A DNA stretch of 64,000 nt, from positions 1 through 64,000 of the forward strand of contig QHPU01000047.1 of the NCBI GenBank assembly GCA_003219175.1, in the 5' to 3' direction. The position numbers and the translations under genes are program-made. Below the pieces are notes generated by a model that saw only the letters and a list, made by a program, of their open reading frames with translations, had not been told where the DNA came from and did no database searches. Shown piece by piece: positions 20,425 to 29,307 of this stretch (position 1 is the stretch's first letter; the number at the start of each line of letters is the position of its first letter). Source of the stretch: Verrucomicrobiota bacterium. GTDB taxonomy: Bacteria; Verrucomicrobiota; Verrucomicrobiia; Chthoniobacterales; UBA10450.

Positions 20425-21930
20425 CTATGTTCCAATCACTCGCAGAAAATCGGCGAAATCCGCACTCTTTCGAATGGCCCTGTTCAATCGCTCGAGGCTT
20501 TCATCGGCGGGTTCCGGCAAGAGAATTTTTTGGGAGCGACCATCGCCCGTCAATACAATCTCGTTCCATTGAATCGACTCGATCTGATCGGTAAAACGCG
20601 CGACCGCGCGTCCACGGAAAAACGCACGTGTCGTTTCCGGCGGAGAAAAAATTGCATGCCGAATCTCATCTTCATTGATCACGCGCCGCATTGAATCGTG
20701 ACGCAACAGTTCATAGTATAATCCGCGGTCCAAATCGATGTTGTGATACTCCAGATCAATCGATTGCAGCCAGGGATCGGTCCACGCCAGTTTTTCTTCC
20801 TCTTGCAGTTCGTTCAGGAGAAATTTCTTCGCCACCCAATCGACGCGATCCCGACAGATCATGACATCGCGCTGCAAATCGTTCAGGACGCTCTCCCACT
20901 CGCGCAAAATCCAGTCCTTCTCCTCGTTGCGATTCAGCTTCTGCGCCGCACCCAGGTAGAGTCGCTGCACTTCGATCGCAGAAATTTTCCGCCCGTCGCG
21001 CAACTCAATAATCCAATCGTAGTTCTGGTCCCGACTGATCGATTTGGCAGCGTCGATCGGTTGCGCGATCTCCAATTGCGGCGCTTTCCCGTTTTCGATC
21101 AACTCCAAGACCAAGGCCGTCGTCCCCAGTTTCATGGCCGTCGCCCATTCACTCATGTTCGAGTCGCCAATAATCACATGAAACCGGCGGTACTTGCTTG
21201 CATCGGCATGTGGTTCATCGCGCGTGTTCACGAGCGGACGGCGATTCATTGTGTCGATGCTGACCAAAACGCTGAAGAAATCCGCCCGCTGTGAAATCTG
21301 AAATGCGCCGGGCTGACCGGGCGCGCTTTCCGCTTCGATCCCCATCTTGCCGGCACCGGCGAAAATTTGCCGCGTAACCAGAAACGGCAGCGCACCAGTG
21401 ACGATACGGTCCCATGGGACATCGCGGCGCATCAGGTAATTATCGTGGCAACCATAGCTGTGACCGAGGAAATCAGTGTTGTTTTTGTAAAGGCAGACAC
21501 GCTGGCGTTCCGGTAGATGCGCATTTCGGCGTCGGGCGCACTCGGCCAAAATCCGCTCGCCCGCCTTTTCCTGGGCGACAATCTCATGCAGGGTTGTGCA
21601 TTCGGGGGTGGAATATTCCGGATGGGCGTGATCGTTGTAAAAACGGGCACCGTTCGACAGCACAAGGTCGCTTTTGATTTCTTGAAAGGTCAGCGGCCGG
21701 TTCTTATCAATCTCGTAATAGGCCGATTCGTCCACGTCCTGACGCAATTCTCGCGCGCGAAAGCCGCGTGCGTCCCGATGCGGGTCTTCATGGCCGTAAT
21801 CCCATTTCATCAACGCGCCGTGCTCGGTGTAACTACGCACCAGCGCGATCGATTCCGCGACGACATCCACGGAGTCCGCGCCTTCCACGGTGATCCCGTA
21901 TTCCGTCTCCAACCCAAAGACGCGTTCCAT
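20425..21930 (-). CDS. dop: depupylase/deamidase Dop (Pup/UBact pathway)
   Basis: A 501-residue carboxylate-amine ligase-fold enzyme of the Dop/PafA family. GLETEYGI carries metal-binding Glu residues, and NGARFYNDHAHPEYSTPEC carries Asp100, equivalent to the catalytic Asp of mycobacterial Dop. NTRDEPHADASKYRR and the nucleotide-site HVIIGDSNMSE follow. The WDYGHEDPHRDARGF segment (43-57) and the C-terminal INEDEIRHAIFSPPETTRAFFRG favour Dop over the ligase PafA. Dop trims or removes the ubiquitin-like Pup/UBact tag. The ATG at 21930 places GLETEYG at residue 6, as in the family. No Pup-like gene is adjacent; arc lies 5.7 kb away on the same strand. Confidence 0.9.
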   Translation of the reverse strand: MERVFGLETEYGITVEGADSVDVVAESIALVRSYTEHGALMKWDYGHEDPHRDARGFRARELRQDVDESAYYEIDKNRPLTFQEIKSDLVLSNGARFYNDHAHPEYSTPECTTLHEIVAQEKAGERILAECARRRNAHLPERQRVCLYKNNTDFLGHSYGCHDNYLMRRDVPWDRIVTGALPFLVTRQIFAGAGKMGIEAESAPGQPGAFQISQRADFFSVLVSIDTMNRRPLVNTRDEPHADASKYRRFHVIIGDSNMSEWATAMKLGTTALVLELIENGKAPQLEIAQPIDAAKSISRDQNYDWIIELRDGRKISAIEVQRLYLGAAQKLNRNEEKDWILREWESVLNDLQRDVMICRDRVDWVAKKFLLNELQEEEKLAWTDPWLQSIDLEYHNIDLDRGLYYELLRHDSMRRVINEDEIRHAIFSPPETTRAFFRGRAVARFTDQIESIQWNEIVLTGDGRSQKILLPEPADESLERLNRAIRKSADFADFLRVIGT

Positions 21931-22040
21931 CCGCTTGAAACATAGCGCGGGAGTAAGCGACACGACAAATTTCGAAAACGCGCTTCGCTTACTTTCTCCT
22001 CTCCTTTTTATTTGACGCCGACCGGGTTGCGGGAAAAATC

Positions 22041-25676: not shown

Positions 25677-27464
25677 TTACTCCTTCAGGACTTGATCGAG
25701 TGTTGTGGAGTCATCCAGCAAGATCCACTCGATAATCGAAATCGGGAGGCTCCCGTTCTTAATCAAATCATCGTGGAATTGGCCAAGGCGAAAGTTCGCG
25801 CCCATTTTGTCGTGATACTTCCCGAGCAGATTCATGATCTGCCATTTGCCGGTGATGTACCAGATCTTCTGCGTCGGTGAAGTAGCCGCGCCGGCAGCTT
25901 CCCCTTCCGCTGACTCCCGATCGAGTCCGCCCCCGTCCATAAAATACTTCACCGCTTGCTCGAAGGTCCATTTACCAGTGTGCAAATTCACGTCCACGCC
26001 GATGCGGGCGGCCCGATATCGCGACAAACGCAAGATTTGCCCCTGAGCCGCCGACCCTTCCGGATAAAATCCCGTCCGCATCAACATTTCTTCGCCATAG
26101 AGCGCCCAGCCTTCAACAAAAACACCGTTCTGATGCTGCCGTCGAATCTCGTCAGTCAAATGATTCGCGATCGATAGCTGCATAAAGTGGCCGGGAATGC
26201 CCTCATGCCCCAGTATTGGGCGTGGGTCCTCGATTGCCGCGCGCAGATAAAAGTTTTTCGACTCCGGGTTGTAGGTCGGAATGAAAAAGAAACCGGTCGG
26301 GTCTTTATCGTAAACACCGGGCGGATTCATAAAACCGCCGGGACTGGTCGGCTTGAATGCCTCCGGCAGTTGTCGAATCTCAAACTTGCCAAGATAATCC
26401 GGGATGGTGACGATCTGATGCGACTTCAAAAAATCGATCATCTCCTGCTCGCGGCTCTCATACGTTTTCAAGAACGATTCCTGATCAGGTGGAATATTCT
26501 TGGCACGGGCAGGGTTCGGGTCGGCCATGGATGGATCGGGCAACAATGCTTCGAGCGCGCGGTAACGCGCTAATTCTGTCCGGCCGAGCATCTCCACCTG
26601 TGCGGCATTCAGCGGCAATAACAGAACATGTTTCAGGTAGTAGTTGTAGTTAGCTTCTCCCATCGGCGCAAAGTCCACCATCTGGGGCAGCTTTTTCTCC
26701 AGCCGATCGGCGAAGGCGTGAATAGCATTAAGCGCCGCGTCCCTCGCCTTCTCGAAATCCGCGCCCTCGGTTTCGGACAAATCCTTCGCCAACGGTGCCG
26801 CGCTCTCCTTAAAAAGCGGATCGATGTTGCGCGCTGATTGAATCCCCAGTTGCGCATAAAGTTTTACCGGCCTTTGCAAATTTTTCTCCGCTTCTGCGAA
26901 CAAAGCCGGCATGGCTTTGAATCGGGCCGTCGCCGACATCGCCCGATTTCGCGGCGTGTCGTACTCCTTCTTTAGCAACGAAAAGATCGCGTTACTGCAT
27001 TCGCTAATGTATGTGTCCGGGTTCGTCTGCTCGAACTTCAAGACGCGTCCGGCGAAGTCCGCATCTTCGAGCTCAGATCGGAAGAGTATCCAATCAATCC
27101 GATCATCTTTGGCCCACTTCTCCGTTTTCATGGCGCGGACTTGATCGAGCAGCTTGCGCACATGTTGCGCACGCTCCGTGATCCTTGCCGCTGTGTAATC
27201 TGTCAGCCGATTGTCCCAGGTATGCAGACCAAACCCACTACTGGCGACAGGATAATTTTCATTGCGCCAGTTGTAATAGTCGGCGGCAAGTCTGTGTAGG
27301 GCGGCCGAATCCATGGCTGATGCTTTGCTGTCAGTGCTAATTGGTGGCGCGGTTTTTGTAATTAAAGCTTTGTTTGAGACATCAGGCCGTCGCTCTGGCG
27401 TAGGAGCGGCGAGGACAATTGCGGCGGGAAGAAAGAAAGCGGCAACGATCGATATTGTCTTCAC
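25677..27464 (-). CDS. secreted DUF885 metallopeptidase-like protein
   Basis: A 595-residue DUF885 protein starting at a GTG (27464) with a signal peptide (KTISIVAAFFLPAAIVLAAP). The putative zinc site is GHEGIPGHF (His-Glu-x-x-Pro-Gly-His), followed downstream by VEGWALYGEEML, in which the Glu residues are likely ligand or catalytic. YRAARIGVDVNLHTGKWTFE is also characteristic. DUF885 proteins are predicted peptidases, probably acting on peptides in the periplasm. It lies 142 bp downstream of arc on the same strand, though a link between the two is speculative. Confidence 0.88.
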   Translation of the reverse strand: MKTISIVAAFFLPAAIVLAAPTPERRPDVSNKALITKTAPPISTDSKASAMDSAALHRLAADYYNWRNENYPVASSGFGLHTWDNRLTDYTAARITERAQHVRKLLDQVRAMKTEKWAKDDRIDWILFRSELEDADFAGRVLKFEQTNPDTYISECSNAIFSLLKKEYDTPRNRAMSATARFKAMPALFAEAEKNLQRPVKLYAQLGIQSARNIDPLFKESAAPLAKDLSETEGADFEKARDAALNAIHAFADRLEKKLPQMVDFAPMGEANYNYYLKHVLLLPLNAAQVEMLGRTELARYRALEALLPDPSMADPNPARAKNIPPDQESFLKTYESREQEMIDFLKSHQIVTIPDYLGKFEIRQLPEAFKPTSPGGFMNPPGVYDKDPTGFFFIPTYNPESKNFYLRAAIEDPRPILGHEGIPGHFMQLSIANHLTDEIRRQHQNGVFVEGWALYGEEMLMRTGFYPEGSAAQGQILRLSRYRAARIGVDVNLHTGKWTFEQAVKYFMDGGGLDRESAEGEAAGAATSPTQKIWYITGKWQIMNLLGKYHDKMGANFRLGQFHDDLIKNGSLPISIIEWILLDDSTTLDQVLKE

Positions 27465-27606: not shown

Positions 27607-29307
27607 TCAGATCACGCCGCCCAAATTCGAAAGTCGCGGCGAATTCGCGTGAAACGGCGCGATTTTCACGACGTACTCCGGGTCGTAATCGATCAGCTTC
27701 AGCCAGTCTTCCGTAATGTCAGTCGGCGGGAAAATATCGTTCTCCGCGTACTCAGCGTGAAATGACATCTGCAGGTCTTGTTCCGTGATGCCCTCATCCG
27801 GGATCGTTTCCGGCGATTCCGCCAGTCCAGCCCGGACAGCGATCGCACGCTTGATTGCCATTCCCTTGGCCCGCTCCACCACCGATGCGATGATAGCGCC
27901 GCTGATCAGGTCACTTCGATACAATATTTCCTTGCGTCCGCTTCGCAGTGTGACCTCCAAAAACTTGTTTTCGTCGCGTTTGGCAAATTGCCAATCAACA
28001 AAACGCTCAATCAGCTTCTCGATCGCATCTCCAATATGGTCGGCTTCCTTGGCCAGCGCGCCGTCGTACGGTAACTCGTTAGTTAAATAGATGCGGTAAA
28101 TCTCCCGAGCTCCTTCTTTGTTCGGGCGATCAATCTTAATTTTCCGATCGATGCGTCCTGGCCTCAAAATAGCGGGATCGATCAGATCGGCGCGATTCGA
28201 GGCCAGTATGATGACCACATCATTGAGCGAATCGATCCCGTCCATCTCCGCGCAGAACATCGGCACCAGGGTCGAGAGAATGTTGGAGTAACGCGAAGCG
28301 CGACGCGTCCCTAGGATGCTCTCCGCCTCGTCGATAAACAGAAATGGCATGAACCTTTCCCGGCGTTTTTCGCGCGCAGTCGCGAAAATTTCGCGCACCA
28401 TCCGTTCCGATTCTCCCACCCACATGTTCAGAATCTCCGGGCCTTTCACGTGCATGAAATATTCTCGCACGTCTTTGTCAGCGTCGTTTGCTTTAGCGCG
28501 CAACTGCCGCGTCAGATTGTAGGCTGTCGCTTTGCCGATCAGCGTCTTGCCGCAGCCCGGTGGTCCATAAAGCAGAAACCCTTTCGGAGTCGCGTGTTGA
28601 AATTTCGCGAACAAATGCGGATGCAACAGCGGGAGCTCGATCGCATCCTTAATCGCTTCGATGGCAGATTCCTGCCCCCCGACTTTCGACCACGGCAATT
28701 CTGGCACGCTATCGAGATAATGTTCGTGCGAACCTGGCGCCGACATCATCTCCAAGGCCATGCGATAGTTGGAATCGACCCGGACTTCGTCGCCTTGCTT
28801 CACCGCTGTTTTCGTGAGCTGTGCGGACCGCTGCAAGACCACCGATTGCGTCCCGTGTTCGTTGCCGACGCGCAGGCGATCGGTCCCGATCACCTCGGCG
28901 ACCTTTGTGACCGGGCCGGCGGGCTCAAAGCCAAGGTCACCGACAATGACGAAAGCCTCGTTCACCAAGACCCGGGTTCCCTTCTTTAACGTCGCGATCG
29001 GAATTCGTGGATCGACGTTGCAATAATAATCCGCGCCGCCGACGACAATGTGTGCCGTGTCTTTGCCGACGCTGCCGAGAAATGTGCCGATACGATTGGC
29101 CGGCGACGTCACTTTTTTGATGACTTCCTCGAGTTTCTCGATCGTCTGCCGGGCTTCCACGAAGATCTCTTCGCGCTGTGAAATTTCCACGCGCAGACCG
29201 AGCAGCTCGCGCCTCATGGCATCGCCGGGCGGCAGTGTAGCGATCAAAAGATCAATGCGATCAAGCAAATCGAATGCCCTTTCACCCTCGTGTCGCTCAT
29301 CGCTCAT
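27607..29307 (-). CDS. arc: proteasome-associated AAA ATPase ARC/Mpa
   Basis: A 566-residue ring ATPase that in characterised systems unfolds Pup-tagged proteins and feeds them to the 20S proteasome. It has an N-terminal coiled coil (about 40-70), a tandem OB region (about 75-190), and an AAA domain with Walker A GPPGCGKT (248-255), Walker B LFIDEAE (Asp326, Glu327), pore segment KGPEILNMWVGE and the SRH NRADLIDPAILRPGRIDRK. The notable point is the C-terminus, SNLGGVI. Actinobacterial Mpa ends SNLGQYL, where the penultimate Tyr docks on the 20S ring; that Tyr is absent here. No prcA/prcB genes are in the window. The ATG at 29307 gives a normal N-terminus. Confidence 0.93.
   Translation of the reverse strand: MSDERHEGERAFDLLDRIDLLIATLPPGDAMRRELLGLRVEISQREEIFVEARQTIEKLEEVIKKVTSPANRIGTFLGSVGKDTAHIVVGGADYYCNVDPRIPIATLKKGTRVLVNEAFVIVGDLGFEPAGPVTKVAEVIGTDRLRVGNEHGTQSVVLQRSAQLTKTAVKQGDEVRVDSNYRMALEMMSAPGSHEHYLDSVPELPWSKVGGQESAIEAIKDAIELPLLHPHLFAKFQHATPKGFLLYGPPGCGKTLIGKATAYNLTRQLRAKANDADKDVREYFMHVKGPEILNMWVGESERMVREIFATAREKRRERFMPFLFIDEAESILGTRRASRYSNILSTLVPMFCAEMDGIDSLNDVVIILASNRADLIDPAILRPGRIDRKIKIDRPNKEGAREIYRIYLTNELPYDGALAKEADHIGDAIEKLIERFVDWQFAKRDENKFLEVTLRSGRKEILYRSDLISGAIIASVVERAKGMAIKRAIAVRAGLAESPETIPDEGITEQDLQMSFHAEYAENDIFPPTDITEDWLKLIDYDPEYVVKIAPFHANSPRLSNLGGVI

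Follow-up and report, generated by a model that had tools for sequence, protein, structure and literature searches.

The closest described relatives of the system analyzed here are the Mpa/ARC ATPases of Actinomycetota, which end in a GQYL tail and operate with a 20S core, a Pup-like tag, Dop and PafA, and the UBact conjugation-proteasome system of Gram-negative bacteria (Pfam PF20513, NF033388). More distant counterparts are the PAN and Rpt ATPases, where the C-terminal HbYX tail is thought to be anchored through its carboxylate to a pocket lysine of the alpha subunit (K66 in Thermoplasma), and PA26, which, unlike the ATPase described below, is a non-ATPase activator and opens the gate through an activation loop. 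HbYX-independent activators such as PA26 require the pocket lysine but show no HbYX dependence (PMC12352868). In both eukaryotes and bacteria, the docking of proteasomal ATPases is attributed mainly to the penultimate tyrosine (PMC8755798). In the Mpa-20S structure from Mycobacterium tuberculosis (Mtb), the tail tyrosine bonds R26 or E119, the tail carboxylate contacts K52 in one of two modes, and the backbone of the tail glycine bonds D144 and S146 (PMC9599533).

The window, that is, the entire analyzed stretch of 64,000 nucleotides, belongs to a 3.2-Mb draft genome of a member of the Verrucomicrobiota (G000) and contains the following features of a UBact-type system:

27607..29307, minus strand: UBact-type ARC/Mpa proteasomal AAA ATPase, a 566-aa open reading frame with coiled coil, OB, AAA and beta-grasp-like C-terminal domains
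27607..27615, minus strand: codons for the terminal V-I plus stop, the proposed tyrosine-free 20S docking tail
27616..27660, minus strand: hypervariable linker between the C-terminal domain and the tail, recognized by entropy in the tail survey and by AF2 pLDDT <50 for residues 555-566
20425..21963, minus strand: Dop-like depupylase/deamidase of the UBact system (TIGR03688, 489.5 bits, cut-off 492.3; Pfam Pup_ligase, 550.7 bits)

In most relatives, the neighborhood of the ARC gene includes a Dop-like gene. Directly 3' of the ARC gene, on the same strand, the window encodes a DUF885 protein (25677-27464, minus strand; 255.8 bits).

The ATPase shares the domain architecture of actinobacterial Mpa/ARC at about 38% identity. 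A reading of this DNA from the sequence alone had described it as full-length with intact motifs and OB domains, and all of these are found in the 566-aa frame: Walker A (GPPGCGKT), Walker B (FIDE), the pore loop W-V-G (Ar-Hb-Gly) and the OB domains, with matches to Pfam AAA and Prot_ATP_ID_OB_N/C. The alignment with Mtb Mpa spans residues 41-549, and the AF2 model matches Mpa structures over approximately 480 columns at 38% identity, with low TM-scores because the arrangement of the domains is unsure. The score against NCBIfam TIGR03689 (442 bits) lies under the equivalog cut-off of 504.75. The protein ends ...HANSPRLSNLGGVI-stop, and the sequence-only reading was correct that its last residues are SNLGGVI where Mtb Mpa ends ...IDTESNLGQYL (PDB 7px9). 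The identity of SNLG is real, but the replacement of the tail in place that had been read from it does not follow: the ends of close relatives are ...GANLGGVI, ...SPIGGVI, ...HTLGGVI and ...TSGVI, and the shared SNLG is a coincidence because relatives at 77-91% identity differ there and the linker is hypervariable. An error or frameshift at the 3' end is likewise discounted as the source of the tail, given that GGVI is the ending in every same-genus genome whose 3' end is intact. A second ARC with a QYL tail was considered and rejected; the other two matches in the genome are weak, partial AAA matches of 38-39% identity.

The unusual tail had also raised the possibility that the host has lost its proteasome, with a search of the genome for prcA and prcB as the proposed check. 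Both genes were found on another contig, C151 (L001), where UBact, PrcB and PrcA follow each other in that order on one strand and form a single cluster:

C151, 2178-2360, minus strand: UBact modifier (NF033388, 84.1 bits, cut-off 35; Pfam UBact, 81.5 bits, cut-off 27.8)
C151, 1390-2178, minus strand: PrcB, the 20S beta subunit, with the T1/D17/K33 catalytic pattern
C151, 638-1393, minus strand: PrcA, the 20S alpha subunit, adjoining PrcB

The UBact modifier consists of 60 residues and ends RTGQ. Of 52 UBact-type PrcB frames, 51 have this catalytic pattern. The score of PrcA against the actinobacterial model is low (68 bits, cut-off 139), and a Pfam search gave no match for it; its AF2 model (pLDDT 89) includes the H0 helix, and the best Foldseek match is Mtb PrcA (probability 1.00). 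Together with the Dop-like gene and the N-terminus of PafA, which is truncated where contig C26 ends (L214), these genes make the UBact-type proteasome system of this genome complete apart from one contig break. Unlike the usual UBact operon, which forms a single cluster in other lineages, the locus is split here, with ARC and Dop in the window, UBact-prcB-prcA on C151 and PafA on C26. No match to Bpa/PafE, an alternative docking factor, was found in the genome above the Pfam cut-off. A 20S-like gene on C106 (L002; 1492-2262, plus strand) was rejected as prcA or prcB; it encodes a separate, single proteasome-like peptidase of 256 aa that is probably Anbu-like.

We surveyed 107 distinct complete UBact-type ARC tails from 118 loci, many of them in draft genomes, of Verrucomicrobiota, Poribacteria, Gemmatimonadota and Nitrospirota. 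In all 107 tails, across the four phyla, a hypervariable linker is followed by a terminal [V/I][V/I] (VI in 76, II in 17, VV in 10 and IV in 4). The last five positions of every tail are free of aromatic residues, and so the penultimate tyrosine of GQYL/HbYX ATPases is lacking. The entropy of the last two positions is 0.56 and 0.71 bits, compared to 2.1-3.5 bits at positions -3 to -15. The tails use seven different last codons, six penultimate codons and all three stop codons, so the constraint acts on the protein. By contrast, all 41 Pup-type ARC tails end in G[H/Q]Y[L/F]; the actinobacterial controls comprise one genome (Nonomuraea) and two PDB species (M. tuberculosis and Rhodococcus). One surveyed record titled Betaproteobacteria (L053) contains a Methylacidiphilales-like ARC and Dop, which probably reflects wrong labelling or contamination of that genome.

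A Pup-type and a UBact-type proteasome operon occur together in many genomes of Nitrospirota and in one of Poribacteria. Both operons were read in twelve Nitrospirota genomes and the Poribacteria genome (consecutively numbered pairs L186/L187 to L210/L211). In the Pup-type operons, ARC ends GHYL, GHYF or GQYL and Pup, where detected, ends GGE (with a single Nonomuraea query, Pup was missed in some of these operons), whereas in the UBact-type operons, ARC ends VI or II and UBact ends RTGE/Q. Thus, the tail follows the operon and not the organism: it is conserved across the UBact class and segregates with the UBact-type operon even beside a Pup-type operon whose ARC ends G[HQ]Y[LF].

The pocket in the alpha subunit differs between the two classes as well. 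In an alignment of 97 UBact-type and 17 Pup-type PrcA sequences, the pocket lysine K52 (Mtb numbering; K47 in PrcA of this genome) is present in 97/97 and 17/17 sequences, respectively, and D144 in 97/97 and 16/17; these two are among only ten PrcA columns that are near-invariant in both classes. The E119 site is occupied by I, L, M or V in all 97 UBact-type sequences and by E in all 17 Pup-type ones, and the R26 site is basic (R/K) in 4/97 compared to 16/17. A class switch in residue type occurs in 10 of 173 columns, including E119, and some of these lie outside the pocket. Judging from these residues, and with the equivalence of the UBact-type and Mtb pockets resting on about 22% identity plus a monomer model, UBact-type PrcA is predicted to keep the contacts to the carboxylate and the backbone and to have lost those to the tyrosine side chain. 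Within the UBact class, in a simple table that does not take the tree into account, the VI tail is always found with I at the E119 site, and the II, VV and IV tails with I, L, M or V.

Taken together, these observations make it highly probable that the ATPase serves a complete UBact-type (Gram-negative Pup-like) proteasome as its unfoldase and docks on its own 20S core via a tyrosine-free tail. The docking motif would be [V/I]-[V/I]-COOH, carried by the flexible linker; its terminal carboxylate would pair with K47 of the alpha subunit, the aliphatic side chains would fill the remodelled alpha pocket, and occupation of the pocket by the V-I tail would open the gate without a tyrosine. Given a class-wide tail and a pocket without tyrosine-binding residues, a second kind of plug and socket seems a better description than a motor that lacks a proteasome.

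Docking might instead depend mainly on the beta-grasp hairpin and the H0 helix, leaving the V-I tail for another partner, such as an assembly or adaptor protein, or for use as an intramolecular latch. The beta-grasp hairpin does have a part in docking in Mtb (PMC9599533), Mtb Mpa can hold its tail tucked inside the ring (PMC8142254), and the V-I dipeptide could bind something other than the alpha pocket. However, terminal conservation behind a hypervariable linker, with K52 and D144 kept and the tyrosine contacts lost, is what would be expected of a pocket ligand, and we consider this alternative improbable. A class I PDZ-type ligand, in particular, does not fit the V-I tail because position -3 varies.

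Less plausible still, and very unlikely, is an ATPase that works without the 20S core, either as a stand-alone unfoldase or as a partner of another protease, as the absence of the GQYL motif and the score under the TIGR03689 equivalog cut-off might suggest. The intact UBact-prcB-prcA cluster in the genome argues against this, as does the near-perfect co-occurrence of ARC with prcB. Among the 39 nearest relatives, both genes are present in 28, neither in 8 and just one in 3 incomplete drafts, so that 36 of the 39 genomes are concordant. Among the Nitrospirota genomes searched, 142 of 296 encode ARC, many of them two, and ARC and prcB genes are equal in number in 133 of 143 genomes (a hand count from two tables); the four genomes whose ARC is solely UBact-type (G441, G494, G592 and G697) likewise have prcB of the UBact type only. 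Furthermore, ARC, Dop, UBact, PrcB, PrcA and PafA form a single cluster in Poribacteria, Nitrospirota, Gemmatimonadota and Methylacidiphilales, and, outside Chthoniobacterales, in most loci with sufficient flank. Of the three options offered by the sequence-only reading, "docks differently" is thus the one favored, whereas another partner and a lone unfoldase are not; many close relatives with this tail do carry prcAB, which speaks against a proteasome-independent role, and yet the tail does appear to represent a different docking type. That the tail reflects unconstrained drift or a sequencing or assembly artefact, a reading for which nothing speaks beyond data from a single genome, has a negligible chance of being correct in view of 107 conforming tails out of 107 from four phyla, with varied codons and stops.

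The ARC and PrcA trees contain the same two clades, UBact-type and Pup-type, each with a support of 100; therefore, the change is old and occurred once in the sample. Each of the two differences, in the tail and in the pocket, falls on a single ancient branch, and because their association amounts to one event, the case is built on what kind of changes these are and on their later conservation, not on repeated covariation.

Compared to Mpa/ARC of Actinomycetota, the system described here retains the alpha pocket lysine and differs in the [VI][VI] ending in place of GQYL, in a pocket without R26/E119 and in a tag, UBact, that ends RTGQ/E. In contrast to the HbYX tails of PAN and Rpt, the tail contains no tyrosine and both of its last residues are branched aliphatic. 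We found no description of the [VI][VI] ARC tail in the bacterial-proteasome literature searched, which did not include the original UBact paper (BBRC 2017), and if docking occurs as proposed, the tail would be a previously unrecognized variant of the HbYX/GQYL mechanism. On balance, we slightly favor a further generalization, namely, that docking in bacterial proteasomes follows one of two codes that exclude each other, a G[HQ]Y[LF] tail paired with an R26/E119 pocket or a [VI][VI]-COOH tail paired with a hydrophobic pocket, that these codes keep the two proteasomes of Nitrospirota orthogonal, and that gate opening by an ATPase requires no tyrosine. A whole ATPase class that ends in two aliphatic residues and shows a matching pocket difference offers a natural means of telling the tail features that serve binding from those that serve gate opening, and the two-operon genomes contain candidate orthogonal proteasome/ATPase pairs within single cells. 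PrcA also shows a charge reversal at columns 21 and 121 (Mtb numbering), with R/K21 and E121 in the Pup-type and E/D21 and K/R121 in the UBact-type sequences, possibly a swapped salt bridge.
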